From Faecalibacterium langellae (GTDB taxonomy: Bacteria; Bacillota; Clostridia; Oscillospirales; Ruminococcaceae), in the NCBI RefSeq assembly GCF_002549775.1, contig NZ_NMTR01000016.1, forward strand, positions 62,001-126,000: a stretch of 64,000 nucleotides of DNA. The letters run 5' to 3'. Under the pieces are notes generated by a model. It worked only from the letters and a program-made list of their open reading frames with translations. It ran no database searches and was not told where the DNA came from. Each line of letters starts with the position of its first letter. The first letter of the stretch is position 1. Made by a program: the position numbers and the translations under genes. This document shows positions 14,614 through 47,621 of the stretch, piece after piece.

Positions 14614-14847
14614 GGGGCGGCGGGCCGGGAGTTTTTCCGAAGACCGTCCGCTGGGGTGGGACCCTGTTGCCGAAGGCAATAGGGCGGGCGATGGAATGGC
14701 CTGCAACGACGGCGACCGCCGCCAGTGGCGGAAACAGGGAGCTATTGTTGGGGCCGCGGCCAGCAAGACGCAAGCGGTAGCGAAGCGGATGCTGGGAGCC
14801 GCAACCCGAACTCATGTCCGAGGAGAAAGCTACCGACACACCGCCCC
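14614..14847 (+). repeat. 230-bp dispersed structured repeat, copy 1
   Basis: Copy 1 of three (others at 16527-16756 and 47394-47621). Outer arms GGGGCGG (14614) and CCGCCCC (14841) are complementary, followed inward by imperfect inverted repeats AGTTTTTCCGAAGAC and GTCCGAGGAGAAAGCT. Inside are a long hairpin (CCCTGTTGCC-GAA-GGCAATAGGG) and a CCGCC-AGT-GGCGG hairpin. A reading frame is open through it but lacks a ribosome site, so I do not call a gene. It lies between marR and the exporter genes, on the opposite strand. Confidence 0.8.
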
Positions 14848-14854
14848 TTTTGCG

Positions 14855-15337
14855 TCACTGCAGTGCTTCCCGCAGTTTGTTCAGCAGCCGCAGCAGCTCG
14901 GCGTTTTCCTCCTCCGTCAGCAGACCGGCCACATAGTCGTCGGTCTGGTGGAAGGTGAGCATCGTTTTTTCGTGGAACTGCACACCTGCCTCAGTGAGCA
15001 CCAGCTGCTTGAGCCGGGCGTCCTGCGGCACGCTGCGCCGCTCAATGTAGCCCTTGCGCTCCATCAGCTGCAGGATGTTGGTCACGGTGGAGCGGGTGAT
15101 GGAAAACTCCCGCTCGATGTCCCGCTGGAACACCGGAGTGTCCGGGTGGCGGTAGAGGTATTCAATGATCCACCCATGCATGGGGGTGGCCTGTTCCACC
15201 TCGTTCTCGCGGGAAAACTGGTTGATCTTGCGGAAGATCAGGTTGTCCACGCGGCGAATTTGTGCCGGGATGACCTGCGGGCCTTCCCAGGGGGGATCGG
15301 TGCATTTGCAGCACTCGTCTTTGATCTCGTCACACAT
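14855..15337 (-). CDS. MarR-family transcriptional regulator
   Basis: A 160-residue winged-helix regulator. The recognition region is about residues 70-105 (FQRDIEREFSITRSTVTNIL, then the wing RSVPQDARLKQLVLT). The N-terminus is unusually Cys-rich: Cys2, Cys9, Cys10 and Cys12, which could sense oxidants or metal; this is inference. It is transcribed toward the ABC exporter and probably represses both itself and the exporter, because similar half-sites lie in both promoters. It has a strong promoter of its own. It is separated from the exporter by a 230-bp repeat, so exporter transcription probably relies mostly on its own promoter. Confidence 0.9.
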   Translation of the reverse strand: MCDEIKDECCKCTDPPWEGPQVIPAQIRRVDNLIFRKINQFSRENEVEQATPMHGWIIEYLYRHPDTPVFQRDIEREFSITRSTVTNILQLMERKGYIERRSVPQDARLKQLVLTEAGVQFHEKTMLTFHQTDDYVAGLLTEEENAELLRLLNKLREALQ

Positions 15338-15370
15338 AATGGTTTTGTCCTTTTGATTGTTTTGATGCTG

Positions 15371-15433
15371 AACAGTTTCTAATAGAACTGTTTGATAGCA
15401 TACATATTATACAGCGCTCAAAGGGATTGTCAA
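15371..15433 (-). promoter_or_regulatory. marR promoter and operator
   Basis: TTGACA (15428-15433), 16-base spacer, TATAAT (15406-15411) on the minus strand. Just downstream, 15371-15392 is a near-perfect dyad AACAGTT-TCTAATAG-AACTGTT covering the start of transcription, as expected for autorepression. Confidence 0.82.
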
Positions 15434-15440
15434 GGGGAAG

Positions 15441-15548
15441 AAAACGATTTTAAATGCCCTCCGCTTTGCTCTGGGCATAAAATAATGAAATATTATTTTT
15501 AATATTGCAAACCAGCCAAGCCTGCGGGCTTGGCTGGTTTGCTTTTTT
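15441..15548 (+). ncRNA. Orphan copy of the pseudoknot-like motif plus terminator
   Basis: Plus-strand ATGCCC (15454-15459), loop with CCGCT, GGGCAT (15473-15478), then an AT-rich stretch and a 16-bp terminator hairpin with TGCG loop (15507-15542) and T6. The downstream AGCGG arm seen in other copies is missing. No plus-strand gene precedes it, so it may be a stand-alone small RNA or a decayed remnant. Confidence 0.5.
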
Positions 15549-15658
15549 CACGGAAGGGGCCGCAGTTGCAAGCAGCATATTTTCCGGCTGCGCGGTCATT
15601 TCCGAAGGAAATAAGCGCAGCAGATGAGGTTTCCATTTTGGACCTTTCCTGTGAAAAT

Positions 15659-15757
15659 GCAACAGCAGACAGCCCGCAGGCTGTCTGCTGTTGCTCTATT
15701 ATTAAAATACCTTTCCGCTAAATATGCCCAGAGCAAAGCGGAGGGCATTCTAAATCG
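15659..15757 (-). promoter_or_regulatory. 3' UTR pseudoknot-like motif and terminator of the DedA gene
   Basis: Reading the minus strand after the DedA stop: ATGCCC-T-CCGCT-TTGCTCT-GGGCAT-ATTT-AGCGG, in which ATGCCC pairs with GGGCAT and CCGCT (inside that loop) can pair with AGCGG. Then comes an AT-rich run and a 16-bp terminator hairpin with C(UGCG)G cap (15659-15694) and T4. Between this and the opposing 15441 unit (15549-15658) I see nothing else. Confidence 0.6.
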
Positions 15758-16348
15758 TCATTCCAGATTGTGCCGTTTGCAGAAATGTTTGCTGGCAAGG
15801 TACATGCCGCACCAGATGAGAACGGCAAGGATGAGATACACCGGGTTCTTCATGGAGCTGACCAGCGACTGCCCGAACACCGCCATCATGGCCACCATGA
15901 CACCCTTGCCCAGCAGCATGGTGATGAGATAACGCTTCTCGTCAAAGTCCGAGATGCCAAAGGCCAGATGCATGAAGGAGCTGGGGGTGAAGGGCAGCAG
16001 CGTGAGCATGAGCAGCGACGAAGTGTCGAAGCGGTTCACCCATTGCTGGGCCTTTTCCAGCTTGGGCCAGCGGGAAGCCAGCTTCCAGAAATAGCGCTTG
16101 ACCAGCCGCCGCCACAGCAGAAACATGATGCTGCCGCCCAGCGCCACACCGGCCCAGCTATAGATAAAGCCCAGCAGGCCGCCGTGGGCCGCCACGTTCA
16201 GCGCCACGATGGCAATGAGCGGCAGCGGCGGGAAGAAGGACTCTACCATCGCCAGCGTGATGGGTGCCAGCGGCCCCAGATTGCCGAAGCCGTTCAGGAG
16301 GTTCTCCCAGAATTCCAGCGTGCCCAGCTGGTGCAGCCAAAGATTCAT
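15758..16348 (-). CDS. DedA/VTT-domain membrane protein
   Basis: A 196-residue inner-membrane protein of the VTT (TVP38/TMEM64/DedA-like) family, linked elsewhere to lipid flipping and envelope homeostasis. Hydrophobic helices lie near residues 25-75, 120-150 and 165-190. The re-entrant segment ESFFPPLPLIAIVALNV and the motif LPFTPSSFMHLAFG are present. I start at ATG 16348 (MNLWLHQLG), because the upstream in-frame extension (to 16417) is basic and lacks a membrane or conserved segment. The ribosome site is weak (GGGACGG at a long distance). Its 3' end carries the pseudoknot-like motif. Confidence 0.85.
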   Translation of the reverse strand: MNLWLHQLGTLEFWENLLNGFGNLGPLAPITLAMVESFFPPLPLIAIVALNVAAHGGLLGFIYSWAGVALGGSIMFLLWRRLVKRYFWKLASRWPKLEKAQQWVNRFDTSSLLMLTLLPFTPSSFMHLAFGISDFDEKRYLITMLLGKGVMVAMMAVFGQSLVSSMKNPVYLILAVLIWCGMYLASKHFCKRHNLE

Positions 16349-16526
16349 TGTGTGTATCCGTCCCTTCTGCCTGCGCCCTTTCCCGCAGCGCAGGCCGTCT
16401 ATCCGTAGTATATCCACATTCTATGACAGAGACGTGAACAGAAAGCGACTTTTTTCGCCCTGCCGCGTCTCTCTGTGAATTGATACGAGACAGCCGGGCG
16501 TTTTTCTGCAAAAAAGTGCGTGGTAA

Positions 16527-16756
16527 GTCTGTGCGTCGGAAGCTTTCTCCTCGGACACGAGTTCGGGTTGCGGCTCCCAGCATCCGCTTCGCTACCGCTT
16601 GCGTCTTGCTGGCCGCGGCCCCAACAATAGCTCCCTGTTTCCGCCACTGGCGGCGGTCGCCGTCGTTGCAGGCCATTCCATCGCCCGCCCTATTGCCTTC
16701 GGCAACAGGGTCCCACCCCAGCGGACGGTCCTCAGAGAAACTACCGACGCGCAGAC
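16527..16756 (-). repeat. 230-bp dispersed structured repeat, copy 2
   Basis: Copy 2, minus orientation. Outer arms are 13 bases at each end (16744-16756 and 16527-16539), complementary except for one G-T pair, and different in sequence from the arms of copy 1. Inner inverted repeats and the internal hairpins match copy 1 closely. It occupies most of the gap between the exonuclease stop and the DedA start, in the same direction as those genes. The remaining 16349-16526 shows no clear promoter. Confidence 0.8.
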
Positions 16757-16796
16757 GAATACAACAGCTCCCCGCTGGTCTGCTTTACTCTGCGCT

Positions 16797-17774
16797 CTAC
16801 TTCTCCGCGCGGGCCTTCAGGCGTTCCAGCTGGGCGGTGCGCTGCTTCTCCCACCGGGCGAGGGATGCTTCGTCCGGCACCTGCAGGCAGCGGGCGTAGC
16901 TCCAGTGCAGGCCGTCGCGGCGGGCCAGCTTGTACCGCTGGAAGACGCCTTTGCCCACGTCATTGCCGCTGCCGGCGCAGTGGGGGCACTGGCTCAGGGT
17001 GTACCAACTGTTGCTGCCCTTTTTCAGCCACACGTCGTCCGGCGTCAGCGGTGTGCCGCACTCCGGGCAGTGCATGGTGTAAATTTTCGGGTCGGTGCGC
17101 CAGGCGTACTGCTCCACATAGCCGTGGAAGACTGCAAAATCCCGGTAGTCGCCGGGGGCGGGGCACAGGCTGGCCCGCAGGGAGTCTTCCTCGGTGGGGT
17201 AGGCGGCAAGGCCTGCCCGCAGGTCGAGCAAACGGCAGACATCGGCGGTGTAGAGCGTGTCGGACAGGGCATCGTGGAACTGCCGCTCCATGGGGATGCC
17301 CATCCGGGTGACGACGCTTTCCAGCGTCATGCCCTCGCCCTCCTTGCGCGGGTGCTCCCGCAGGAACACCTGCTGCAGGTCGTACCAGACAGTGGGCTTC
17401 GATTCGTCGATGTTGCAGAGAAATAAGTTCTGCTTGAGCACCGGAACATCGTCCATGCCCCACTCGGCAAACTCGGCGTCCGGGCCGCACCACTGCATGA
17501 AGCGGCGCAGGCCCTGCACGATGGGCTCGCCCTTGTCGAGGTCGGCCTGGGTCAGGCCGGTGACCTTGGCGATGTGGTGCTGCAGCTTGCGGAAGATGCG
17601 GGGCTTCAGGTGGATGGAAAAGGTGTCCAGCACGTTGGCATCCTCGTCGATCTTCACGGCACCGATCTCCACGATCTCGCCCCGGAAGGTCTGCTGCACG
17701 CCGTGATAATTGAAGGTGTAGGGCTGGTAGCCGATGTTCCATTCCAGATCAAATAAAACCAGATTGCGCGGCAT
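16797..17774 (-). CDS. DEDDh 3'-5' exonuclease with zinc ribbon
   Basis: A 325-residue RNase T/DnaQ-like exonuclease. Exo I is LFDLEWN (Asp, Glu), Exo II lies in EWGMDD, Exo III is FHDALSDT (His, Asp). It resembles the KapD/sporulation-inhibitor-like group rather than PolC. The C-terminal 80 residues hold two Cys pairs (CPECGTPL and CPHCAG) that likely form a zinc ribbon for nucleic-acid binding. It lies 18 bases downstream of the HAD phosphatase gene and probably shares its promoter. No typical terminator is seen after the stop; the 230-bp repeat begins 40 bases later. Confidence 0.88.
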   Translation of the reverse strand: MPRNLVLFDLEWNIGYQPYTFNYHGVQQTFRGEIVEIGAVKIDEDANVLDTFSIHLKPRIFRKLQHHIAKVTGLTQADLDKGEPIVQGLRRFMQWCGPDAEFAEWGMDDVPVLKQNLFLCNIDESKPTVWYDLQQVFLREHPRKEGEGMTLESVVTRMGIPMERQFHDALSDTLYTADVCRLLDLRAGLAAYPTEEDSLRASLCPAPGDYRDFAVFHGYVEQYAWRTDPKIYTMHCPECGTPLTPDDVWLKKGSNSWYTLSQCPHCAGSGNDVGKGVFQRYKLARRDGLHWSYARCLQVPDEASLARWEKQRTAQLERLKARAEK

Positions 17775-17792
17775 TGTTTTGTGTTCCTCTCG

Positions 17793-18608
17793 TTACTCTA
17801 AAATAAACTTCTCCACCGCTTCGGCCACGCCGTCGTGGTTGTTGTCGGCTTCGGTGACGTAGTCGGCGCAGTCCTTCACGGGCGGCTCGGCGTTCTGCAT
17901 GGCCACGCCCACCCCGGCAAATTCGATCATGGAGCGGTCGTTCAGGCCGTCGCCGCAGGCCATCAGGTTCTCGCGGCCAAGGCCCATGCGTTCCAGCAAT
18001 GCGGCCAGGCTGCCGTCCTTCGCCACGCCCAGCGGCACGGCCTCGATGAAGAACGGGCTGGAGGGGTACAGGTCGGCGCGGCCCGCAAACTGCTGCTGCC
18101 CGGCGGCGCACACCGCGTCCCGGCGGGCCGGGTCCAGCGTGATGAGCATCTTGCAGATGGGGTAATCCACATACTTTGCCAGGTCGTCCACATGGATCAT
18201 GGGCAGCTTTGTGGTAAAGCACTCCTTGTTGGCCCATTCGTCGGTGTCACGTTCGCACACGATGCCCTCATGGTTGTAGGTCAGGATGGCAATATCCTGC
18301 GCGGCGGCAAAGGCGCACAGCTCGGGCACCAGGGCCGGGTCCAGCGTTTTTTCCACCAGCGTCTCGCCGGTGACGCAGTCCACGATCTTGCCGCCGTTGT
18401 AGGACAGGATGCACCCGCCCTTTTTGTCCAGCCCCAGCTCCTTTGCCAGCGGGGTGATGCCGGCGGTGGGGCGGCCGGAGGCCAGCACGACGGTGACGCC
18501 CTGCGCGATGGCGGCGTCCAGCGCGGCGCGGGTGCGGGGGGTGACGACCTTCTGGTCGTTGGTCAGGGTGCCGTCCAGGTCCAGTGCCAGAACTTTGATC
18601 TTGCTCAT
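17793..18608 (-). CDS. Cof-type HAD phosphatase
   Basis: A 271-residue HAD subfamily IIB hydrolase. Motif I is LDLDGTLTN (nucleophile Asp), motif II VVLASGRPT, motif III a Lys near VAKDGSL, and motif IV GDGLNDRSMI. Such enzymes dephosphorylate sugar phosphates and cofactor phosphates in the cytosol; specificity cannot be read from sequence. The C-terminus ADNNHDGVAEAVEKF is typical of the family. A paralogue is present at 28329-29237 with the same C-terminal pattern (ADCDHDGVAEILEKL). Confidence 0.92.
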   Translation of the reverse strand: MSKIKVLALDLDGTLTNDQKVVTPRTRAALDAAIAQGVTVVLASGRPTAGITPLAKELGLDKKGGCILSYNGGKIVDCVTGETLVEKTLDPALVPELCAFAAAQDIAILTYNHEGIVCERDTDEWANKECFTTKLPMIHVDDLAKYVDYPICKMLITLDPARRDAVCAAGQQQFAGRADLYPSSPFFIEAVPLGVAKDGSLAALLERMGLGRENLMACGDGLNDRSMIEFAGVGVAMQNAEPPVKDCADYVTEADNNHDGVAEAVEKFILE

Positions 18609-18654
18609 CTATAACATTCCTCTCTCTTGCGGAAATAAGACACTTACATCTTCT

Positions 18655-18684
18655 ATTGTACAATGAAATGCGCCCAACTTTCAA
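18655..18684 (-). promoter_or_regulatory. Promoter of HAD phosphatase-exonuclease operon
   Basis: TTGAAA, 18-base spacer, TACAAT on the minus strand, about 45 bases before the ATG. Confidence 0.65.
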
Positions 18685-18817
18685 CCCTTCCGGCACGGTT
18701 TGTGGGAAAAGCGGGATTTTACACACTTTTCCAGGGCTTTACATTGGGCGGGGAACGCCCGCGCCGGTTTTACCAAAGCTTTGCAGCGGCATGGTTTTTT
18801 GCAGCCCGGCGGCGCGC

Positions 18818-18823
18818 TACAAT
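18818..18823 (+). promoter_or_regulatory. Possible -10 of the alkaline phosphatase gene
   Basis: TACAAT with only a T-rich -35 region (18795-18800). No Pho-box-like direct repeats were recognised. Confidence 0.3.
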
Positions 18824-18904
18824 AAAAGCGTTCCCGCAAGATGACAAAACGGGGCCTGAGGCAGGCCCGCAGCGTTTGATGAGATGAAAAGAGAGGATCA
18901 CGTT

Positions 18905-20452
18905 ATGAAAGAAAATAAGATCTCCCGCCGCAGCTTTCTGAAATTTGGCGCAGCCGCTTCCGCCGTCGGTATGCTGGCCGCAGCACCCGTTGCCGCCCAG
19001 GCAGCCGAAGCAGATGCTTCCACCGCAGCAGACGAGGAAAACTGCCTGCTGGACCTGTTCAAGAAGCCCAAGTACATCTTCCTGTTCATCGGCGACGGCA
19101 TGGGCACCGCCCAGATCCAGTCCGCCCGCTTCTATAAGGGCACCGTGGACAACAACGGTGCTGTTACCGAGGCTGACCTGAGCTTTACCAGCTTCCCCAC
19201 CGTGGGCAGCGTGACCACCTACGACAGCACTTCCTTCTGCCCGGACTCCGCTTCCACCGCCACCTCCATCGCCACCGGCCACAAGACCGAGAGCGGCGTC
19301 ATCAACATGTGCCCCTGGACCCGCGACGTGCCCTATGAGACCATCGCCGAAAAGCTGCACAGCCAGAAAGGCTACAAGGTGGGCGTCATTTCTTCCGTCA
19401 ACATCGACCATGCCACCCCGGCCGCTTTCTATGCCCACCAGAACAGCCGCAAGAACTACTACCAGATCGGCGTGGAGCTGGCAAACTCCGGCTTTGAGTA
19501 TTTTGCAGGCGGCGAGTTCCAGAAGGTGAACGGCGACGGCACCGGCCCCAACAACCACGAGGTGGCTGCACAGGCTGGCTACAATGTGGTCACCACGCAG
19601 GCAGGCGCTGCTGCCCTGGCCGCAGGCGCAGGCAAGACCCTGATCATCGCCGAGAACCTGGCCGACGGCAAGGCCATGAACTACGCCATGGACGCCGCCG
19701 CAGGCGAGTGGCAGCTGACCGACTACGTGAAGAAGGGCATCGAGCTGCTGGACAACGACAAGGGCTTCTTCCTGATGACTGAGAGCGGCAAGATCGACTG
19801 GGCCTGCCACGCCAACGATGCCGCTGCTTCCATCCACGATGTGCTGGAGATGAGCAACGCCGTGCAGGCCGCCGTTGACTTCCAGAACAAGCACCCCAAC
19901 GAGACCCTGATCCTCGTCACCGCCGACCACGAGACCGGCGGCATGGCCATCGGCTACAAGACCACCAACTACGACACCTTCCTGACCAACCTGACCCACC
20001 AGAAGATGTCCTACGCAAAGTTCGATTCCACCTATGTGCAGGGCTACATTGCCAATAAGACCCCCTTTGAGACCGCCATGGCTGACGTGAAGGCAAACTT
20101 CGGTCTGACCCTGCCCACCGACCCGGCCGCCGCCAGCGCAGGCAAGCTGCTGCTGACCGACTACGAGGTGGAGAACCTGCGCACCGCCTACGAGCGCACC
20201 CTGGAGGTGGGTTCCTCCAGCCAGAGCAAGATGAGCCAGCAGGATTATGAGCTGTACGGCACCTACATCCCCTTCAGCATGGCCATCTGCCACACCATCA
20301 ACCACAAGTCCGGCATGGACCACACCACCTATGCCCACACCGGTGCCATGGTGAACATCTACGCAAACGGCGTGGGTGCTGAAAACTTCGGCGGTGTGTT
20401 CGACAACACCGAGATCTACCACAAGCTGGCGGACCTGACCAAGGTGCAGTAA
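18905..20452 (+). CDS. Secreted alkaline phosphatase with Tat signal
   Basis: A 515-residue PhoA-family enzyme that releases phosphate from monoesters outside the cytoplasm. ATG 18905 follows GAGAGGA; an in-frame ATG at 18884 has no such site. The N-terminus has a twin-arginine motif (SRRSFLKF) followed by a hydrophobic Ala-rich segment and an AQAAEA cleavage region, so it is exported folded. Metal and catalytic motifs: FIGDGMG, DSAS with Ser115 as nucleophile, ATGHKT, ADHETGGM and HTGAMVNIYANG. It stands alone with a following terminator. Confidence 0.93.
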   Translation: MKENKISRRSFLKFGAAASAVGMLAAAPVAAQAAEADASTAADEENCLLDLFKKPKYIFLFIGDGMGTAQIQSARFYKGTVDNNGAVTEADLSFTSFPTVGSVTTYDSTSFCPDSASTATSIATGHKTESGVINMCPWTRDVPYETIAEKLHSQKGYKVGVISSVNIDHATPAAFYAHQNSRKNYYQIGVELANSGFEYFAGGEFQKVNGDGTGPNNHEVAAQAGYNVVTTQAGAAALAAGAGKTLIIAENLADGKAMNYAMDAAAGEWQLTDYVKKGIELLDNDKGFFLMTESGKIDWACHANDAAASIHDVLEMSNAVQAAVDFQNKHPNETLILVTADHETGGMAIGYKTTNYDTFLTNLTHQKMSYAKFDSTYVQGYIANKTPFETAMADVKANFGLTLPTDPAAASAGKLLLTDYEVENLRTAYERTLEVGSSSQSKMSQQDYELYGTYIPFSMAICHTINHKSGMDHTTYAHTGAMVNIYANGVGAENFGGVFDNTEIYHKLADLTKVQ

Positions 20453-20483
20453 GTCCATCCACCGCTTTCCTTCGCGAATGTGC

Positions 20484-20537
20484 AAAAAGCTCCCCGCTCT
20501 GAAACCGCAGCGACTGCGGCAGGGTGGAGAGCTTTTG
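20484..20537 (+). terminator. Terminator after alkaline phosphatase
   Basis: AAAAGCTC...GAGCTTTT outer stem enclosing a CCGCAG-CGA-CTGCGG hairpin. Confidence 0.65.
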
Positions 20538-20582
20538 TATCTGTTATGCCGTCGGCCTTTGCGGCTCTGCGGTTGAAAAAGC

Positions 20583-20614
20583 AAATCGGGAAAGTCCGCA
20601 GACTTTCCCGATTT
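20583..20614 (-). terminator. mscL terminator with UGCG loop
   Basis: Minus strand: AAATCGGGAAAGT stem, C(UGCG)G cap, then GCTTTTTC. Confidence 0.88.
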
Positions 20615-20627
20615 GTAATTTAAAAAT

Positions 20628-21080
20628 TTAATTGTTGATCTCCGGGAAGCCCTCCAGCTTGCTGGTGCAGTGGGGGCAGCGCACGGCCTTGATGGCGATC
20701 TCGCTCTGGCAGAAGGGGCACACCTTGGTGGTGGGCTCTGCGGGCGCGGCGGGTGCTTCGGGCTTTTTGTGCAGGGAGTTGATCGCCTTGATGACCACGA
20801 ACAGCACGAATGCCACGATCAGGAAGTTGATGATGGCATTGATAAAGGAACCAATGCCGATCATCACATCGCCCACATGGATGCCGACGTCCGAAAAATC
20901 AGCGTTGAAAAACAGGCCGATGGCGGGGTTGATGATGTCGTTCACCAGTGAGTTGACGATCGAGGTGAACGCACCGCCGACGACCACGCCGACTGCCATG
21001 TCCAGCACGTTGCCGCGCATGGCGAATGCCTTGAATTCTTCCAGGAATTTCTTGATGCCCTTGCTCTCTTTTTCTGCCAT
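20628..21080 (-). CDS. mscL: Large-conductance mechanosensitive channel with zinc ribbon
   Basis: A 150-residue channel that opens under membrane tension to release solutes at osmotic downshock. The core is canonical: KKFLEEFKAFAMRGNVLDMAVGV, then TM1 with GGAFTSIV, periplasmic loop, and TM2 near residues 70-95. The C-terminal 40 residues carry CPFCQSEIAIKAVRCPHC, a rubredoxin-like zinc ribbon added to the cytoplasmic end, seen in some Clostridia but absent from E. coli MscL. I start at ATG 21080 (MAEKESKG, GGAG upstream); a much longer in-frame extension to 21332 has no support. Confidence 0.95.
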   Translation of the reverse strand: MAEKESKGIKKFLEEFKAFAMRGNVLDMAVGVVVGGAFTSIVNSLVNDIINPAIGLFFNADFSDVGIHVGDVMIGIGSFINAIINFLIVAFVLFVVIKAINSLHKKPEAPAAPAEPTTKVCPFCQSEIAIKAVRCPHCTSKLEGFPEINN

Positions 21081-21135
21081 AAGTAAATCTGCTCCTTTAC
21101 GCCCCTTATGCCGCAGGGGATTTTTATTTATCTCT

Positions 21136-21164
21136 ATGATAGCGGATTTTCCGCCTGCTTTCAA
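21136..21164 (-). promoter_or_regulatory. mscL promoter
   Basis: TTGAAA, 17-base spacer, TATCAT on the minus strand. A CCCCT/AGGGG hairpin lies in the leader. Confidence 0.65.
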
Positions 21165-21232
21165 GGGAAAAAGCCCTGTTTCGGCGTTTTTTTCGGGGCC
21201 CAAAATGCTGCGCCATTTTGGGCGGCAAAACA

Positions 21233-21264
21233 AACACGGGAAAGCCCGCAGGCTTTCCCGTGTT
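21233..21264 (-). terminator. Terminator of the lipoprotein gene, UGCG loop
   Basis: A 14-bp stem AACACGGGAAAGCC with TGCG loop on the minus strand, then a T-rich tract. Confidence 0.85.
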
Positions 21265-21282
21265 GTGGCTATAAAACGGAAA

Positions 21283-21753
21283 TTACTTCTCCGGTGCAGC
21301 AAAAGCGATGGGGGTAGCGCCTGCAGCGGCATCCACGTTCTTCAGAGAGATCGGGGTGGTCTCGTAGTGCAGGGTCTCAAAGCTCTGGGTCTCGCCGTCC
21401 TCGGTGGTGAACTCCAGCACGTAGTTCACATCGGACTGCTTGTCGGCGTCCTCGTCGCGGGTGATGACAACGCTCTCGCCGTCAGCCAGACCGTTTTCGC
21501 CGGCCAGATTGTCGCCCTTCTCCTCGCTGCCTACGTCGTACAGGTACAGCTCGGTGACGGTAGAACCAGTGGTGTTGTACACGGTGTACTCAGCGGAAAC
21601 AGCCTCGGCCTCGCTGGAAGCAGCCTCGGAGGAAGCGGCAGCAGAAGAAGCCACGGAAGAAGCAGCGGTGGAGGATGCGGAAGAACCGCATGCGGTCATG
21701 CCGACAGCCAGTGCTGCAGCGGCAGCAACGATAGCAGCATTCTTGAGTTTCAT
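21283..21753 (-). CDS. Lipoprotein of unknown function
   Basis: A 156-residue protein starting at ATG 21753 after AGGAG. The signal peptide ends in the lipobox MTAC with Cys near residue 22. A Ser/Ala/Glu linker of about 30 residues (SSASSTAASSVASS) follows, then a small domain that begins YTVYNTTGSTVTELYLYDVG and contains VITRDEDADK and YVLEFTTEDGE, all consistent with a beta-sandwich. It should be anchored on the outer face of the membrane. No known catalytic motif. It has its own promoter with an unusually long leader of about 70 bases and its own terminator. Confidence 0.85.
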   Translation of the reverse strand: MKLKNAAIVAAAAALAVGMTACGSSASSTAASSVASSAAASSEAASSEAEAVSAEYTVYNTTGSTVTELYLYDVGSEEKGDNLAGENGLADGESVVITRDEDADKQSDVNYVLEFTTEDGETQSFETLHYETTPISLKNVDAAAGATPIAFAAPEK

Positions 21754-21826
21754 GTGAAATATACTCCTTATAGTCTTTACTTCATGTTTGAATTCAACCA
21801 ACAAGGTGGGTTGGCTGACGAAGATG

Positions 21827-21855
21827 ATTATACGGAAATTTGGACAAAAAAGCAA
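21827..21855 (-). promoter_or_regulatory. Promoter of the lipoprotein gene
   Basis: TTGCTT, 17-base spacer, TATAAT on the minus strand. Confidence 0.7.
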
Positions 21856-21952
21856 GAATTTCATGCGCATTTTCCACGATGAAGCAGGAACTGTTACCAT
21901 TTTGACATGAAATGGACACATTTTAACATGTGCTAACATGAAGAAAACAAAA

Positions 21953-21976: not shown

Positions 21977-21987
21977 GGCAAAAGACA

Positions 21988-39472: not shown

Positions 39473-40438
39473 ATGGCCCCTGAACAACAGCAGCCTTTTG
39501 ACCCGGCCTCGTTTGAGCATATCCCGGTTTTGCTGAACGAGTGCCTGGAAGGGCTCAACATCGACCCCGCAGGCACCTACCTCGACGGCACCGCAGGCGG
39601 CGCGGGCCACTCCCGCCAGATCGCCCTGCGGCTGGACGGCGAGAAGGGCGGACGGCTGATCTCGCTGGATCAGGACCCGGACGCTGTGCAGACCGCCCGT
39701 GCCCGCCTGGCCGGACTGCCCGCCACAGTGGTGCAGATCAACTTCCGCTACGCCGGGCAGGCACTGGAGAGTCTGGGTATTGAAAAGATCAACGGCGCGC
39801 TGCTGGACCTGGGTGTTTCCAGCCACCAGCTGGACGACGCGGCCCGGGGCTTTTCTTACCGGGCAGACGCCCCGCTGGACATGCGCATGAGCCAGCAGGG
39901 CGAGACGGCGGCGGACCTTGTGAACAGCGAGAGCCGCGAGGAGCTGGCCCGCATCCTGCGGGACTACGGCGAGGAACCCTTCGCCTGGCAGATCGCAGGC
40001 AAGATCGTGGAGGCGCGGGAAACGGCCCCCATCGAGACCACCCTGCAGCTGGCCGACATCGTGGCCAGCGCCATGCCCCCGGCCGAGCGCCGCAAGAACA
40101 AGAACCCTTCCCGCCGCACCTTCCAGGCGCTGCGCATTGCGGTCAACCACGAACTGGACGCGCTGGAAGAAGGGCTGGACACCATTTTTGAACATCTCGC
40201 GCCGGGCGGCCGCCTGTGCGTGATCACCTTCCATTCGCTGGAGGACCGGCTGGTGAAGAACAAGTTCCGCCGCTGGTCTACAGCCTGCACCTGCCCGCCG
40301 GAGTTCCCGGTGTGCGTGTGCGGCGGCAAGGCGAAGGCGAAGCTTATTACCCGCAAACCGATCGAAGCAAACAGCCAGGAGCTGGAGGAGAACCGGCGCA
40401 GCCGGTCTGCTCACCTGAGAGTTTTGGAAAAATGCTGA
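39473..40438 (+). CDS. rsmH: 16S rRNA (cytosine(1402)-N(4))-methyltransferase
   Basis: A 321-residue SAM methyltransferase (formerly MraW). Start MAPEQQQ with AAAGGAGG upstream; an in-frame GTG at 39467 is too close to that site. Motifs: HIPVLLNECLEGL, YLDGTAGGAGHS, LLDLGVSSHQLDD and RRTFQALRIAVN. Cytosolic. Second in the cluster after mraZ, the usual order in Firmicutes. Confidence 0.96.
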   Translation: MAPEQQQPFDPASFEHIPVLLNECLEGLNIDPAGTYLDGTAGGAGHSRQIALRLDGEKGGRLISLDQDPDAVQTARARLAGLPATVVQINFRYAGQALESLGIEKINGALLDLGVSSHQLDDAARGFSYRADAPLDMRMSQQGETAADLVNSESREELARILRDYGEEPFAWQIAGKIVEARETAPIETTLQLADIVASAMPPAERRKNKNPSRRTFQALRIAVNHELDALEEGLDTIFEHLAPGGRLCVITFHSLEDRLVKNKFRRWSTACTCPPEFPVCVCGGKAKAKLITRKPIEANSQELEENRRSRSAHLRVLEKC

Positions 40439-40481
40439 ATGCTGACGGATCTGTCAGCATTGTGTGAGGAGGAGTGCAATC

Positions 40482-40961
40482 ATGGGTCAGGCAGCATATG
40501 ATATGAACGCGGTACGCCGCAGAAAAGCCCCGCAGACACAGCGGAAGGCCGATCTGCGGGTGGCAAAGGGCGGCAAGCGGCGTCTGTCGCCGCTGCAGGC
40601 AGCCGTGCACAACGCCATGCATCTGGTGGCGGCGGCGCTGCTGGTGGGCTTTGCCATCAGCCTGCTGTGGAGCGAGTCCCGTCTGGTGGAACTGAACGAC
40701 CAGATCCAGGATGCAAAAGCCCAGCTGGTGAGCGAGCAGAGCCAGTATACGTACTACAACAGCACCCTGAACAGCAAGACCAACATTACCAGCGTGGAAG
40801 AAACCGCCAACCGGCTTGGCCTGATGAAGATCGACCAGAGCCAGATCACCTACATCCGTCTGGGCGAGAGCGATACGCTGGAACGTACCCAGTCCGCTGT
40901 GCGGCAGTGGACCGATTTCATCTATAACGGTGCCGTGACCATTCTGGGCACCATCCAGTAA
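40482..40961 (+). CDS. ftsL: FtsL/DivIC-like septum protein
   Basis: A 159-residue bitopic membrane protein. GAGGAGG precedes ATG 40482. A basic cytoplasmic N-terminus of about 45 residues (AVRRRKAPQTQRK) is followed by one membrane helix (MHLVAAALLVGFAISLLW) and a coiled coil (LVELNDQIQDAKAQLVSEQS) with the family-like TNITSVEETANRLGL. It should join FtsQ and the SEDS/PBP pair at the septum. Called from position in the cluster and topology, since FtsL is poorly conserved. Confidence 0.85.
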   Translation: MGQAAYDMNAVRRRKAPQTQRKADLRVAKGGKRRLSPLQAAVHNAMHLVAAALLVGFAISLLWSESRLVELNDQIQDAKAQLVSEQSQYTYYNSTLNSKTNITSVEETANRLGLMKIDQSQITYIRLGESDTLERTQSAVRQWTDFIYNGAVTILGTIQ

Positions 40962-41082
40962 ATCGAAAAAACGGGAAAGCGTGCGGCAGTGCACGCTTTT
41001 TCGGTTTATAGCCGCAAGGCAGCAAAAAACGATCATGGCGGCAGGCTGGGCACGGCGCCCGGCACGCCGCAGGAGAATACCG

Positions 41083-43569
41083 ATGCAAGAATCTTCCCCC
41101 AAAAAACAAAAGGGCCGCGGCTACCGGCTGCGGCAGGCCAGCGCCCGCGACCGGCTGGACACGGGCGTGCGCAGCGTGTGCAGCAAGCTGGGCGTGGCGG
41201 CTGTGGTGGTGGCGGCGGCCATCGTCATCCACAGCCTGTACGTCATCCAGATCAAAAATGGCGCGACCTACCGCCAGTATGCGGCCCAGCAGCAGCTGAT
41301 GGACACCACCATCAAAGCCACCCGCGGTGAAATTTATGATGCTTCCGGCATCACGCTGGCTTCCACCAGCGTGGTGTGGACCATCTGGGCCGACCCCAGC
41401 TACAGCAGCATCCTCTACACCAGCCAGACCGCCGCCGACGGCACCGTGACCAAAACGCTGGACCCGGCCATGTGCGCCGAGGTGAGCCGGGAGCTGACGC
41501 TGCGGCTGCTGTCCGGCGACGGCGAAAGCCTGGACGCGGTGGACACCTCGTCCGACGCGTACCAGCAGCAGTACCAGACCGTGTACGATGCGCTTTCCAA
41601 GACCGACGCCGCCTATGTCACGCTGGCCACCAAGGTGAACAACGCGGTGAAGCTGTCCATTGAACAGTACGTCACCGCCTTCAACAAGGCCCACAAAAAG
41701 GCCACCGACACCTCCCGCAAGGGCCGCATCTCGGTGTCTTCGGAAAAGAGCTTCCAGCGCAACTACCCCTATGGTGCCTTTGCGGCGGCGGTGCTGGGCT
41801 TTACCGACGCCGACGGCGTGGGCACCTACGGACTGGAAAAATCCTACCAGTCCACGCTGGCCGGTGTGGACGGCCGCACCATCACCCAGCGCAACGCGGT
41901 GGGCAACGCCATCGCGGATGCAAACGCCACCACCTTTGCGGCCAAGGACGGCAGCAATCTGGTGCTGTCGCTGGACGTGAACGTGCAGGAGATCGTGGAG
42001 CGCTACCTGAACGAGGCCATCGCCGCCAACACCGTGGAGAACCGCGGCACGGCCATCGTGATGAACGTGAAGACCGGCGCGATCCTGGCCATGGCCTCCA
42101 AGCCGGATTTTGACCCCAACGACCCGCTGGACTACAGCACCAACCTCGATTACCTCAACGAACTGGTACGGGCTGAGCCGGAGCTCTATGGCATTTACAA
42201 AAAGGATGCCGACGGCAACGAGATCAAGGACGAAAACGGCAACCGCATCCTGGACGAGGAAGCCGATTACTCCGGCTATTTCCGCGATATCCAGTGGAAG
42301 AATAAGGCCATCACCGAGCTGTACTACCCCGGCAGTGTGTTCAAGGTGATCACCTCGGCCATGGGCATCGACTCCGGCCTTGCCAACATCAACACCACCT
42401 TCACCTGTGCCGGTGCCTACGGCGTGGCAAAGGAGACCTACCACTGCGCAGGCCACAAGGCCCATGGCACCATCACCCTGGCCGAAGCGCTGCGCCAGAG
42501 CTGCAACATCTATTACATCCAGCTGGGTCAGCGCATCGGCTCCCAGACCTTCTACGATTACTTCGATGCCTTCGGCTTTACCAGCCGCACCGGTGTGGAC
42601 CTGCCCAGCGAGACCAACTTCATGCAGTACTACAAGGCCGACCAGCTGGGCGAAGTGCAGCTGGCCTCCTCGGCTTTCGGTCAGGCCATGGCCATCACCC
42701 CGCTGCAGATGTGCACGGCCGTGGCCGCAGCCGTCAACGGCGGCTATCTGGTCACGCCCCATGTGGTGGATAAGATCACCGACTCCAACGGCAACGTGAT
42801 CGAGGAGGTGGGCGCGAACGTCCGCCGCCAGGTCATCAGCGCCAGCACCAGCGATGCCATCCGCCAGATCATGGAATATGAGGTGGGCAATGGCACCGGC
42901 GGCGGCAAATATGCTTACGTTTCCGGCTACCGCATCGGCGGCAAGTCCGGCACTTCCGAACAGCTGAACATGGACCGCCGCACCGATGGCGACTACAAGA
43001 AAGTGGCGTCCTTCGCCGCCGTTCTGCCTGCCGACGACCCGGAGATCATCGTCTATGTCATGCTGGATGACCCCAACAACGCCAAGACCGACTACTCGTC
43101 CCTGCTGGCAGCCCCCGTTGTGGGCAACATCATCAGCGAGGTAGCACCGTATCTGGGTATCGCCACCGACGGCGAGGACCGCAGCGGCACCACTGTCACC
43201 GTGCCCAATCTGGTGGGCACCGAGTGGAGCAGCGCCCAGGTGCAGCTGAACATCAAGGGCCTCAAGCATCAGCTGGCCGAGAGCGAGTCCAGCCAGACCG
43301 CTGCGGCGGTCACCTATCAGTACCCCCATGCAGGGGCAAAGGTGGCCTATGGCACCACGGTGTACCTGTACACCGATACCTACGAGGGCCAGCACACCGA
43401 GGTGCCGGATGTGACCGGCAAGAGCGCGGACTTTGCCCGCCAGATGCTGTCGGCGGCGGGCCTGAACTGCGTGGTGGAAGGCGACGCCAACGGCACCGTG
43501 CAGGCCCAGAGCGAGGATGCGGGGGCCAGCGTGCAGCGCGGCAGCATTATCACGATTACATGTGGATAA
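41083..43569 (+). CDS. Class B penicillin-binding protein with PASTA domains
   Basis: An 828-residue transpeptidase (FtsI/SpoVD-like) crosslinking peptidoglycan at the division site. AGGAG precedes ATG 41083. One membrane helix near residues 32-58; dimerisation domain; then the transpeptidase: SxxK motif in YPGSVFKVI, SxN in RQSCNIYY, and KSGTSEQ. Two C-terminal PASTA domains (VPNLVGTEWSSAQVQLNI and VPDVTGKSADFARQMLSA) may sense muropeptides. It lies between ftsL and murF in the cluster. Long-form proteins like this serve vegetative division (PBP2B) or sporulation (SpoVD); sequence cannot tell which. Confidence 0.94.
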   Translation: MQESSPKKQKGRGYRLRQASARDRLDTGVRSVCSKLGVAAVVVAAAIVIHSLYVIQIKNGATYRQYAAQQQLMDTTIKATRGEIYDASGITLASTSVVWTIWADPSYSSILYTSQTAADGTVTKTLDPAMCAEVSRELTLRLLSGDGESLDAVDTSSDAYQQQYQTVYDALSKTDAAYVTLATKVNNAVKLSIEQYVTAFNKAHKKATDTSRKGRISVSSEKSFQRNYPYGAFAAAVLGFTDADGVGTYGLEKSYQSTLAGVDGRTITQRNAVGNAIADANATTFAAKDGSNLVLSLDVNVQEIVERYLNEAIAANTVENRGTAIVMNVKTGAILAMASKPDFDPNDPLDYSTNLDYLNELVRAEPELYGIYKKDADGNEIKDENGNRILDEEADYSGYFRDIQWKNKAITELYYPGSVFKVITSAMGIDSGLANINTTFTCAGAYGVAKETYHCAGHKAHGTITLAEALRQSCNIYYIQLGQRIGSQTFYDYFDAFGFTSRTGVDLPSETNFMQYYKADQLGEVQLASSAFGQAMAITPLQMCTAVAAAVNGGYLVTPHVVDKITDSNGNVIEEVGANVRRQVISASTSDAIRQIMEYEVGNGTGGGKYAYVSGYRIGGKSGTSEQLNMDRRTDGDYKKVASFAAVLPADDPEIIVYVMLDDPNNAKTDYSSLLAAPVVGNIISEVAPYLGIATDGEDRSGTTVTVPNLVGTEWSSAQVQLNIKGLKHQLAESESSQTAAAVTYQYPHAGAKVAYGTTVYLYTDTYEGQHTEVPDVTGKSADFARQMLSAAGLNCVVEGDANGTVQAQSEDAGASVQRGSIITITCG

Positions 43570-43593
43570 GAAATAAGAGAGGGGAAAGGACCA

Positions 43594-44976
43594 ATGGAAA
43601 AGATCTCTGCAAGCAAGCTTCTGGCCGGGCTGGTGCCCGAAGGCTTTCTGACCGGTGACCCGGAGGTGGAACTGGTCACTACCGACAGCCGCGAGGTGAA
43701 GCCCGGCTGCATCTTTGTGGCGTTCCCGGGCGAAAAATTCGACGGCCACAACTTTGCGGCCAAGGCGCTGGAAGATGGCGCGGCCTTCGTTGTGGTGAAC
43801 CACCCGGTGGAGGGCGTGCCCGCCGAAAAGGCCATCCTCTGCCCGGACAGCTACCACGCCATGATGGTCATGGGCGCAAACTACCGCAGCCAGTACCACC
43901 CCAAGATGGTGGGTGTGACCGGCAGCGTGGGCAAGACCACCACCAAGCAGATGACCTACGCCGCGCTGGCCGGTTTTGGCGAGACCATCAAGACCGAGGG
44001 CAACCAGAACAATGAGCTGGGCATGCCCCGCACCCTGATGCGTCTGGAAAAGAGCACCGAATATGCCGTCATCGAGATGGGCATGAGCCATGCGGGCGAG
44101 ATCGACCGTCTGGCTCGCGCCGCCCGGCCGGATGTGGGCATCATCACCTGCATCGGTGTGTCCCACATCGGCAACCTGGGCAGCCAGGAGAACATCTGCA
44201 AGGCAAAGCTGGAGATCTGCAACGGCCTGCCCGAGGGTGCCCCGCTGGTGCTGAACTACGACGACCCCTTCCTGCGCAAGGCAAAGCTGCCCGCGCATGT
44301 GCGCCCGGTGTGGTTCAGCCTGGCTGACGAAAACGCCGACGTGTGTGCCCTGTCCATCCGGCAGGAAGCCGACGGCATGAGCTTTGTGCTGGAAGACCAG
44401 GAAGAAGGCACCTTCGTGGTAAAGATCCCGGCCATGGGCCGGCACAACGTGGCCAATGCACTGGCCGCCTATTGCGCCGCCACCCGTCTGGGCTGCGACC
44501 CGCGCGGCGTCATCAAGGGGCTGGCTGAATTTGAGCAGACCGGCCGCCGCCAGAAGGTGGTGCACAGCAAGGGCGTCACCGTCATCGAGGACTGCTACAA
44601 CGCAAACCCCGACAGCATGAAGGCGGCTCTTGCCATGTTCAAAGAGTTCCCCTGCAAGCGCCGCTTTGCCCTGCTGGGCGATATGCTGGAGCTGGGCGAG
44701 CTCTCCCGCGAGGCTCATGAGGAACTGGGCCGTCAGGCGGCCGAAAGCGGCCTGTACTGCCTGATCACCTACGGCGAGCAGGCAAAGCGCACCGCCGTGG
44801 TGGCCGCCGCGAAGGGGGTCAAGACCATCCATGCGGGCAGCTACCGCGAAGCAGCCGATTCGCTGCTCAAGCGCATGGAGCCGGGTGATGCCCTGCTGGT
44901 GAAGGCCAGCCACGGCATGGCACTGGAAAAAGTGCTGGAAATTTTCTACGCAGAGCAGAAAGATGCCGAAGCATAA
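43594..44976 (+). CDS. murF: UDP-N-acetylmuramoyl-tripeptide--D-alanyl-D-alanine ligase
   Basis: A 460-residue Mur ligase that adds D-Ala-D-Ala. It has GVTGSVGKTTTKQM (ATP loop), EMGMSHAGEIDRLARAARPDV, and the C-terminal EDCYNANPDSMKAALA typical of MurF. GGGGAAAGGA precedes ATG 43594; the gap to the PBP gene is 24 bases. A MraY-like gene follows, as in many Firmicutes. Confidence 0.96.
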   Translation: MEKISASKLLAGLVPEGFLTGDPEVELVTTDSREVKPGCIFVAFPGEKFDGHNFAAKALEDGAAFVVVNHPVEGVPAEKAILCPDSYHAMMVMGANYRSQYHPKMVGVTGSVGKTTTKQMTYAALAGFGETIKTEGNQNNELGMPRTLMRLEKSTEYAVIEMGMSHAGEIDRLARAARPDVGIITCIGVSHIGNLGSQENICKAKLEICNGLPEGAPLVLNYDDPFLRKAKLPAHVRPVWFSLADENADVCALSIRQEADGMSFVLEDQEEGTFVVKIPAMGRHNVANALAAYCAATRLGCDPRGVIKGLAEFEQTGRRQKVVHSKGVTVIEDCYNANPDSMKAALAMFKEFPCKRRFALLGDMLELGELSREAHEELGRQAAESGLYCLITYGEQAKRTAVVAAAKGVKTIHAGSYREAADSLLKRMEPGDALLVKASHGMALEKVLEIFYAEQKDAEA

Positions 44977-45004
44977 CACTTTGGCATAAATTGGAGACGG
45001 AAAA

Positions 45005-46024
45005 ATGATACGTTTCGCCTTGATCGTCGCGTCGGTGCTGGGGTTTGCACTGACGGCGGCGCTCGGCAATCTGATGGTGCCCCTGCTGCGGGAGCTGGAA
45101 CGCTCGCTGCGCGGGCAGGCACCGGACCCGAAAACAGAACCGCAGCACGAGCCGCCGCAGCCGGTGCCCGCGCTGGGCGGACTGTGCCTGATGGTGGGCA
45201 CGCTGGCTGCCGTGGGTGTGGGCTGGGTGGCCGCCTGTGCCGCGCAGCCCTCGCTGCTGGGCAGTGACGGCAACCTGATGACCCGGCTGCTCATCGCGCT
45301 GGCCGGTGCGCTGGCCTTTGGCGGCATCGGCCTGGCCGATGATCTGGCTCGGGTGCGCAGCGGCTATCCGAACGGGCTGGGCCTGCGGCGCGGCGTGCGC
45401 CTTGGGCTGGAAGCAGCGGCCGCTGCTGCAGTGCTGGGCCTGCTGGCGCTGAACGGCTGCCTGCCCGGCGGGCTCATTCTGCCGGGGAAAGGCTATGTGA
45501 GCTTTGCCGCCGCACCGCTGCTCTGGGGTGTGCTGCTGGTGGCGCTGGCCGAGTGCGGCCGGGTGGCCGACGGGGCAGACGGCACCGTGTGCGGTGCGGC
45601 CTTTGCAGCCATGCTTGGCCTGATGCTGCTGGAAACGCAGCTGGGCTGGTTCCCGCTGGCGGTGCTGCCCGCCGCGCTGGCCGGTGCGCTGATGGCGTTC
45701 CTTCTGTGGAACTTCCCGCCCGCAAAGCTGCGGCCCGGCAAATGCGGCTGCCTGTTCCTCACCGGGGCCATTGGGTGCATCCCGCTGTGCATGGGCTACG
45801 CAGAGCTGGCCGTGCCGCTGGCACTGCCCTTCTGGGCCGAGGGCGGCATGGTGCTTTTGCAGATTTTGTCCTACCGGCTGACGGGCAGAACGCTGTTCCG
45901 CGCCGCGCCGCTGCACCGCTGGCTGGAAAAACGGGGCCATGGCGATGTGAGTATTTTTTGCAGCCTGTGCGCATTGAGCGTGTGCGGGCTGGCGCTGACC
46001 ATGGGGCTGGCGCGCTGGGCCTGA
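45005..46024 (+). CDS. MraY-like membrane protein with degraded active site
   Basis: A 339-residue polytopic protein at the expected place of mraY, after murF. It keeps a family-like PALGGL turn, the Asp pair in GLADDL (Asp112, Asp113) and Asp189/Asp192 in ADGADG. However, the MGDxGS segment reads RPGKCGC, so the catalytic Asp is Lys246, and the His triad reads LHRWLE (only His304 remains). It is also unusually Ala/Leu-rich. About ten helices. It is either a divergent MraY or a non-catalytic paralogue; a normal MraY may be elsewhere in the genome. Confidence 0.72.
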   Translation: MIRFALIVASVLGFALTAALGNLMVPLLRELERSLRGQAPDPKTEPQHEPPQPVPALGGLCLMVGTLAAVGVGWVAACAAQPSLLGSDGNLMTRLLIALAGALAFGGIGLADDLARVRSGYPNGLGLRRGVRLGLEAAAAAAVLGLLALNGCLPGGLILPGKGYVSFAAAPLLWGVLLVALAECGRVADGADGTVCGAAFAAMLGLMLLETQLGWFPLAVLPAALAGALMAFLLWNFPPAKLRPGKCGCLFLTGAIGCIPLCMGYAELAVPLALPFWAEGGMVLLQILSYRLTGRTLFRAAPLHRWLEKRGHGDVSIFCSLCALSVCGLALTMGLARWA

Positions 46025-46061
46025 GGCCCGGCACAAACTGGAAACGAGGGGAGAAAGGCAG

Positions 46062-47372
46062 ATGGCAACCATCCGCAGAAAACACAGAGAGCCGGTGCGC
46101 CCGCTGCAGCGGGACCCGGGGCCGTGGTCCCGGCTGGTGATCGACTGGCTGGCGACGCTGGCGGTCATCATGGTGTTCGGCCTTGTGATGCTGTTCAGCG
46201 CAAGCTATACCACCGGCTACCTGCGCATGGGCGACAGTTTTCACTACATCAAGCAGCAGGCGCTGTGCATGATGATCGGCCTCGGGTGCATGTTCGTCAT
46301 GAGCTACATGGATTACCGCTTTCTGCGCAAAATGGCGGTGCCGGGGTATTTTATCGTGCTGGTCATGCTGGCCGTTACCCTGACCATGGCCCCGCTGAAC
46401 GGCTGCCGCCGCTGGATCCGCTTCGGCGGCTTCACGCTGCAGTCTTCCGAGGTGGCAAAATTTGAGATGATCCTGCTGTGCTCCAGCCTTGCGGCCAAAG
46501 CACCGCAGATCGAAAAATATGACCCCGCCCGCCGCGTCCGCGTGACACCGCACACCTGGTTCTATGTCCGGGTGTGGAAGCAGCTCATCTTCCCGGTGCT
46601 GCCGCTTCTGCCTGTGATCGTGCTGCTGGCGCTGGAGCCCCACATGTCCGGCATCGTGCTGACGGTGGCCGTGGTGGGCACCATCCTGCTGCTTTCGGGC
46701 AGCGGCGGCATCCTCACCTGGGTGGGTGCCGGTGCGGCGGGCCTGATGCTGGAAACGCTGCTGTCCCATGTGGATTCCATCCCCTACCTGCAGGACCGTC
46801 TGGACGGCTGGACCCAGGACCTGAGCAAGATGACCGACCAGACCGTGCAGAGCCTGTATGCCATCGGCTCCGGCGGGCTGACCGGCCTGGGCCTTGGCAA
46901 CAGCGTGGAAAAGCAGCTCTGGCTGCCCGAGAGCACCAACGACTTCATCTTCAGTGTTGTGTGCGAGGAGCTGGGCTTCATCGGCGCGGTGCTCATCATC
47001 GTGCTGTTCGTGCTGTTCATCGTGCAGGGCCTACTGATCGCCTACCGGGCCGAGAACCTCTACTGCACCATGGTGGGCATCGGCATCATGGCACAGATCG
47101 CGTGGCAGGTGTTCTGCAACATCGCGGTCGTCACCAACACCCTGCCCAACACCGGCATCAGCCTGCCCTTCTTCTCGTCCGGCGGCACCAGCCTGATCTT
47201 GCTGCTGGCCGAGATGGGCGTGATGGTGAACATCGGCCGCAACGGCGAGCGTGCCGCCCAGCAGCGGGAAGCCATGCGTGCCCAGCATGAAGCCGCAAAG
47301 GCCGAGCGGGAAGCCGACCGTGCCAGCCGCACCATTGATCTGGACGCCGCCCGCAGGGCACGCGAAGTATAA
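46062..47372 (+). CDS. ftsW: SEDS peptidoglycan polymerase FtsW
   Basis: A 436-residue glycosyltransferase with about ten membrane helices that builds septal glycan with its PBP partner. Conserved stretches: WIRFGGFTLQSSEVAKFEMI, PESTNDFIFSVVCEELGFIG and LPNTGISLPFFSSGGTS. The basic, Ala/Arg-rich C-terminus (residues 385-436) is cytoplasmic. Start follows GGGGAGAAAGG. Assigned FtsW rather than RodA from its place among division genes. Confidence 0.92.
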   Translation: MATIRRKHREPVRPLQRDPGPWSRLVIDWLATLAVIMVFGLVMLFSASYTTGYLRMGDSFHYIKQQALCMMIGLGCMFVMSYMDYRFLRKMAVPGYFIVLVMLAVTLTMAPLNGCRRWIRFGGFTLQSSEVAKFEMILLCSSLAAKAPQIEKYDPARRVRVTPHTWFYVRVWKQLIFPVLPLLPVIVLLALEPHMSGIVLTVAVVGTILLLSGSGGILTWVGAGAAGLMLETLLSHVDSIPYLQDRLDGWTQDLSKMTDQTVQSLYAIGSGGLTGLGLGNSVEKQLWLPESTNDFIFSVVCEELGFIGAVLIIVLFVLFIVQGLLIAYRAENLYCTMVGIGIMAQIAWQVFCNIAVVTNTLPNTGISLPFFSSGGTSLILLLAEMGVMVNIGRNGERAAQQREAMRAQHEAAKAEREADRASRTIDLDAARRAREV

Positions 47373-47393
47373 AATAGGAATGCAGTATTTTGA

Positions 47394-47621
47394 CAGGACG
47401 GCGGGTAGTTTCTTCGAGGACCGTCCGCTGGGGCGGGACCCTGTTGCCGAAGGCAATAGGGCGGGCGATGGAATGGCCCGCAACAATGACGACCGCCGCC
47501 AGTGGCGGAAACAGGGAGTCTTTGTTGGGGCCGCGGCCAGCAAGATGCAAGCGGTAGCGAAGCAGATGCTGGGAGCCGCAACTCGTTTTCGTGTCCGAGG
47601 AGAAAGCTACTCGATGGCCTG
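47394..47621 (+). repeat. 230-bp dispersed structured repeat, copy 3, in the ftsW-murG gap
   Basis: Copy 3, plus orientation, filling the gap between ftsW and murG. Inner arms TAGTTTCTTCGAGGAC and GTCCGAGGAGAAAGCTA match copies 1 and 2; the outer arms (CAGG at 47394 and CCTG at 47618) are less perfect. It is inside the operon, so it will be transcribed with the mur genes. A frame stays open from it into murG, but the AAAGGAGG and ATG at 47653 mark the real start. Confidence 0.8.

Follow-up and report, generated by a model that had tools for sequence, protein, structure and literature searches.

A probable structured mobile repeat of Faecalibacterium that carries a folded module spread through its bacterial order

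Introduction

Several kinds of short, folded repeats have been described in bacteria. The BOX repeats of Streptococcus pneumoniae and S. suis are composite intergenic repeats with an optional inner module and with stem-loops predicted to form on transcription; boxA/C and boxE/F frames of S. suis contain the same boxB modules, and the repeats insert into each other (PMC3049150). ERIC is a 127-bp enterobacterial repeat with TA target duplications (PMC2759123, PMC10969869). A survey of RNAs in 50 genomes listed mobile or repeat candidates, including a multicopy covarying motif that has no fixed orientation and possibly acts as DNA (PMC11109978). Here we analyze a 64,000-nt stretch of Faecalibacterium langellae (GCF_002549775.1, NZ_NMTR01000016.1, positions 62,001 to 126,000, forward strand), referred to as the window, which contains three copies of a folded unit of 230 bp. 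The unit is two elements, an outer repeat (A; ca. 130 nt) and a module inserted in it (B; 106 nt). The window copies are probably examples of a nonautonomous structured mobile repeat, A, resembling BOX or miniature inverted-repeat transposable elements (MITEs) and carrying a structured module, B, that is found across the order.

The likenesses to BOX, ERIC, and the Rickettsia palindromic elements are by description, not by sequence. As in BOX, an inner module is common to different outer frames (PMC3049150), but BoxB occurs in tandem arrays, whereas no tandem B was noticed inside one A, and B spans more kinds of host sequence and an order. A resembles ERIC in its length of ~130 bp, its intergenic location, its long hairpin, and its tens of copies, some of them intragenic (PMC2759123, PMC10969869), but ERIC belongs to other bacteria, and the TA duplications of ERIC have no demonstrable counterpart in A. 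Rickettsia palindromic elements are palindromes of ~150 bp that are tolerated in frame in genes (PMC10969869), as A is in cca; the differences are that A has one clear in-gene locus, holds a nested B, and can lie either way round at a single locus. The multicopy covarying motif of the 50-genome survey also lacks a fixed orientation, but the survey's worked example is one long stem. Its main text contains no mention of Faecalibacterium, and overlap with one of its 250 candidates is possible via the supplements (PMC11109978). No earlier description of A or B was found in the literature searched, most subscription papers lying outside its scope. Relative to the descriptions that were found, what is new is the host breadth of one module, its covarying spread across an order, and the opposite orientations at one locus.

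Results and Discussion

A sequence-only reading of the window had proposed a single 230-bp element in three copies, which share the hairpin CCCTGTTGCC-GAA-GGCAATAGGG and have outer arms that are complementary within a copy and different between copies. The three copies, the common hairpin, and the behavior of the arms were all confirmed, with one mismatch in the 13 nt given for copy 2. The unit itself is a composite of A and B, and the inversions and the order-wide occurrence of B lay beyond what that reading could see. The 43 matches in the window's own genome are A-only, B-only, and A+B pieces. The limits of the window copies were set by the profile of arm complementarity, and the minimum free energy z-scores of the three copies were -2.66, -4.31, and -5.19.

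A consists of P1 arms of ~28 bp and a tandem G-A internal loop, followed by hairpins, the last of which has a UGGA loop. B sits in the 3' strand of this last, apical hairpin: A without B reads ..GGGCGATGGAATGGCC-CGA.., and in A with B the module starts one base past GGCC. Arm complementarity among 50 copies extends ~17 nt outward from the junction between AG and TTTCTCC (AG included) and then drops. The terminal inverted repeats of A comprise ~17 bp outside this junction plus 7 and 4 bp inside it. The outer arm sequences vary from copy to copy, and copies of the main subtype have just the inner TTTCTCC/GGAGAAA part in common. A therefore lacks terminal repeats of one common sequence, a MITE trait, because its outer arms differ between copies. 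It does share with MITEs the occurrence of many small dispersed copies.

A was found in 14 of the 31 Faecalibacterium genomes, with at most 21 matches per genome, some of them partial. In a sample of 197 genomes of the family, which included three of the genus, A was present in two, both Faecalibacterium, and in none outside the genus. All 18 stretches with an exact match to a 25-nt core in a named genome collection, from which records near the window's own were possibly omitted, were also Faecalibacterium. No match was found in plasmids, and a plasmid-borne element was rejected. In a phage collection, 20 records contained parts of A or B; all were unannotated Bacteriophage sp. from human feces, for which bacterial carry-over is possible.

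Larger alignments of both A and B support the covariation noticed between the window copies. Of 57 distinct B-less copies, 36 of the main subtype were aligned; the remaining 21 belonged to other subtypes, had indels, or were chimeric. The structure of A in these 36 copies has 51 pairs, 21 of which changed on both sides, including 19 of the 28 in P1. Paired cells amounted to 94.3%, versus 85.7% in shuffles, and the covariation score was 0.257, compared with 0.102 ± 0.006 for shuffled alignments and 0.05 to 0.08 when the structure was slid. The pairs of hairpins 2 and 4 in this count did not vary at all and are uninformative. Other subtypes of A had paired changes in the inner stem (GCAAGTG/CACTTGC, GCAAATG/CATTTGC, and GCGAGTG/CACTCGC), and in two copies (L141 and L161) halves of different subtypes were joined.

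The flanks of 79 copies were compared, and 12 loci were matched by both flanks between genomes. A was in opposite orientations at 6 of the 12. At 5 of the 12, B was present in some genomes and absent in others; this variation of A between orthologous loci corresponds to the optional inner module of BOX. One matched locus (L009/L146) holds A in one genome and a related subtype, D, in another. At six further loci the element was absent in several relatives, and unrelated repeats occupied the same place in others. Shortened derivatives of the element were also found at compared loci. Intergenic sites occupied by A in one species hold quite different hairpin repeats of a CCTCTCC..GGAGAGG type in others (L310, L311, L317, L318, and L320).

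The ftsW-murG junction, the site of window copy 3, illustrates absence of the element. Over the 150 nt shown, nothing similar was seen by eye in 26 of 28 relatives, and the other two had the joined outer arms alone. Apart from one match with three mismatches in a third genome, the arms-only state was not found elsewhere. Because this state is so rare, it is read as a deletion, and the possibility that A targets a preexisting hairpin was rejected. The possibility that the arms of A are copied from the host was also considered. At L110, both arms are missing from the element-free site of the window's own genome, which speaks against such copying and indicates that the arms arrived with A there. 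In cca, the element-free site of one clade, though not that of another, resembles one arm.

A inserts mostly at intergenic sites, with one case in frame within a gene. In a rough count of 55 copies based on mechanically called open reading frames (ORFs), 14 copies lay between convergent genes, 14 between codirectional genes, 2 between divergent genes, and 14 inside an ORF, with 11 not assigned. The one clear in-gene insertion is in the gene for the CCA-adding enzyme (cca; PF01743, PF12627, PF13735), a trait shared with the Rickettsia palindromic elements. The cca frame was open through A in all seven translated copies, which include either orientation of A and one case with B, and cca in the window's own genome has no element. 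A stop-free frame was present in 78 of the 79 copies, which is weak evidence in GC-rich DNA of such length.

B is ~106 to 116 nt long and folds as two adjacent hairpins. Within Faecalibacterium it was found in 18 of the 31 genomes, where scoring was limited to 28 candidates for each genome. Its hosts are A, the D subtype of A, and, by eye, at least five other repeat types (96 rows, some weak). In L383, L384, and several of L194-L213, B lies in a repeat similar to the CCTCTCC..GGAGAGG type. An alignment of 67 distinct copies showed covariation, with two-sided changes in 13 of 33 pairs and a score of 0.215 versus 0.111 ± 0.004 in shuffles, although further pair types were in no clear excess over shuffles (42/500).

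A search with a covariance model of B (E value of 1e-5; E values rough) extended its range to the family and the order: of 197 genomes sampled from the family, 25 gave matches (19 of 125 genera), and of 197 sampled from the order, 27 did (19 of 110 genera). In an alignment of 43 distant matches, fitted to the covariance model and so biased toward it, 25 of 33 pairs changed on both sides, with a score of 0.518 versus 0.128 ± 0.009 for shuffles and 0.05 to 0.09 when slid. The near-constant parts of B are CGC..CC.GTGGC.GA..AG.GA and GCGGTC..GGGCACCGCAA.

The settings of distant B were examined for 42 matches outside the genus: of 48 places listed, 40 were fetched, and 2 further matches lay in the fetched stretches, with duplicate loci excluded. 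An intact tRNA gene on the same strand lay near 17 of the 42, at up to about 490 nt, in 16 cases within 400 nt. By eye, B lies within a partial tRNA copy in the tRNA-Ser, -Trp, and -Met cases and in the anticodon loop of a tRNA 5' half in the tRNA-Pro cases. For example, a tRNA-Ser copy interrupted by B adjoins the intact tRNA-Ser gene (L350:343-674). In one tRNA-Pro case (L362) the flanks CCTGCTTTG and CAAAGCAGG are complementary, and CCTGCTTTG is tRNA sequence; in L325, L345, and L368 the flank match is less complete. L362 and L368 contain repeated units, each a tRNA-Pro 5' half plus B. For comparison, the stretches around 40 B loci of six Faecalibacterium genomes, most of them reaching 400 nt to each side, contained no tRNA, and 1 of 30 A loci had a tRNA within about 3 kb. 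Unlike the other genus genomes examined, Faecalibacterium genome G015 (L355-L359) had tRNA genes near four of six fetched B loci.

B also occurs at the ends of genes. The 5' strand of its first stem begins with the last codon and stop of guaA (GMP synthase; L336 and L348) and of an ABC permease gene (L352, L354, and L178), hosts identified by Pfam GMP_synt_C and BPD_transp_1. L354 and L178 are in Faecalibacterium, and L336, L348, and L352 are in other genera. The 3' stem strand is fully complementary in L336, L348, and L352 and has one mismatch in L354 and L178; just five or six bases of the stem are known as host sequence in these cases.

Neither A nor B matched a known RNA class, and the sequence-only reading had recognized none. 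The window gave no match to Rfam 15 at the gathering score, and in lenient scans of 5 and 10 loci the only matches above the gathering score were tRNAs beside B. Weak subthreshold matches occurred, such as Leu_leader, which touches the end of B in L371 at 34.9 versus 50 bits. A known class was rejected because no Rfam family reached the gathering score on A or B.

The features of the window copies and the cca copies are collected in Table 1. Copy 1 is antisense to both of its neighbors, a MarR-family gene and an ABC transporter gene, which are on the minus strand. Copy 2 is codirectional with the two minus-strand ORFs that flank it, the downstream one having a VTT domain. Copy 3 is flanked by an FtsW/RodA-family gene and by a gene for a family-28 glycosyltransferase; the latter is named murG here because of its family and its position following ftsW. 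Open frames traverse A and B in all three copies (window positions 14588-15382, 16158-16676, and 47251-48780), and one of those in copy 3 continues in frame into the gene downstream. A different hairpin repeat (C) is present at 15454-15542 and 15659-15750 as two copies in inverted order, both lacking B. Each copy of C forms a long, nearly perfect stem capped by a TGCG loop; the stems vary between copies in the same genome, and the loop is constant.

Table 1. Positions of A, B, and their parts in the window, and loci with A in cca
Feature	Position	Strand	Details
Copy 1, A+B composite	14615-14846	+	P1 arms 14615-14631 and 14830-14846
Module B in copy 1	14703-14808	+	
P2 hairpin of A, copy 1	14662-14684	+	
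Copy 2, A+B composite	16526-16757	-	P1 arms 16741-16757 and 16526-16542
Module B in copy 2	16564-16669	-	
P2 hairpin of A, copy 2	16688-16710	-	
Copy 3, A+B composite	47392-47623	+	P1 arms 47392-47408 and 47607-47623
Module B in copy 3	47480-47585	+	
P2 hairpin of A, copy 3	47439-47461	+	
cca copies with A			L046, L129, L102, L034, L033, L113, L111

The plus strand folded better than its complement in all 36 A copies and in 58 of 67 B copies. Wobble cells in A were G-U in 58 cases versus A-C in 29, and 46 versus 19 when orthologues were collapsed to 25 rows and three pairs with G-U as the commonest state were excluded. Distant B had 22 G-U versus 7 A-C. These data favor folding of one strand, which may be RNA or single-stranded DNA, as the two would look alike.

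The earlier suggestion that the element is a folded RNA or is MITE-like with hairpin ends is supported, as dispersal and presence/absence fit a mobile repeat. The reading of the window copies as a mobile repeat A carrying B draws on the spread of copies, presence and absence, nesting, covariation, and loci at which the element lies in either orientation. A may be moved by an enzyme provided in trans, and the fold of one strand, as RNA or single-stranded DNA, may be needed for moving or tolerating the element. Complementarity of the arms would be kept by selection for the fold together with inversion or hairpin-templated repair. B joins or leaves A at a given locus and also sits in further hairpin repeats, in copies derived from tRNA genes, and at gene ends, in Faecalibacterium and in other genera. 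Several observations weigh against this reading. A target-site duplication could be fixed at no locus, the intergenic flanks being too diverged, and a possible CTAT repeat was seen at one locus only. B within the genus had no G-U excess (21 versus 17 A-C, with one mostly G-U pair excluded), and wobble cells are not independent events. The outer flanks of distant B reached the 95% control in 4 of 46 cases, with medians of 19 and 18, and general inverted repeats as its flanks were rejected on this count. Because flank complementarity was so weak overall, it is claimed just for the tRNA and gene-end cases, both judged by eye.

It is also possible, although somewhat unlikely, that the same repeats are mobile but that the fold has no function and inverted arms simply recombine, invert, and are mutually repaired by template switching at hairpins. 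The opposite orientations between genomes at 6 of 12 loci, the perfect long arms at orientation-switched loci, and the deletions across the hairpin, including the arms-only remnant in two genomes and the shortened derivatives, would all be expected from such a process. However, it does not account for the excess of G-U over A-C in A and distant B, for the better folding of one strand, or for the covariation of B's internal hairpins, which lack long arms. A functional regulatory RNA kept for the host, such as a riboswitch, a leader, or a trans-acting small RNA, would be consistent with the strong covariation and the conserved unpaired core. This explanation is very improbable in view of the opposite orientations at the same locus, the absence at orthologous loci, the lack of preference for gaps between divergent genes (2 of 55 in the rough count), and the different neighbor genes of the three window copies. 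A fixed cis-regulatory role of A is unlikely because its orientation, the presence of B, and the presence of A itself all vary, and the cca copy is in frame either way.

The settings of B outside the genus raise two further explanations. The guaA gene and tRNA loops are classic integration sites, and B might be the debris of integrase attachment sites, old insertion sites in tRNA genes and gene ends that were later copied around. The intact tRNAs near 17 of 42 out-of-genus matches and the direct repeats of tRNA parts in several tRNA-linked cases agree with this origin, but the covarying fold of B is kept in all settings aligned, and none of the 40 B loci in six Faecalibacterium genomes had a tRNA, though four of six in G015 did, which makes debris quite improbable. 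A more speculative extension, which we consider doubtful, is that B is the scaffold of an undescribed mobility system templated by RNA or single-stranded DNA in an order of gut bacteria. Such a system would settle at hairpin-encoding sites or conserved gene ends, with one stem strand being the host target and the other an element-borne complement, as at the guaA and permease stop codons and the tRNA-Pro anticodon arms; the covarying arms would be target and guide.

Implications

The repeats described here are a well-supported case of small repeats acting as modules: one folded module, B, recurs across an order in a large variety of unrelated hairpin hosts, in tRNA-derived copies, and at gene ends, and the outer repeat keeps its fold despite opposite orientations at the same locus. 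B, which has no match in the copy of Rfam searched, is a candidate for description as a new family. Two questions become testable: whether RNA, single-stranded DNA, or recombination underlies the movement of such repeats, and whether selection or hairpin repair accounts for the covariation of repeats in bacteria.

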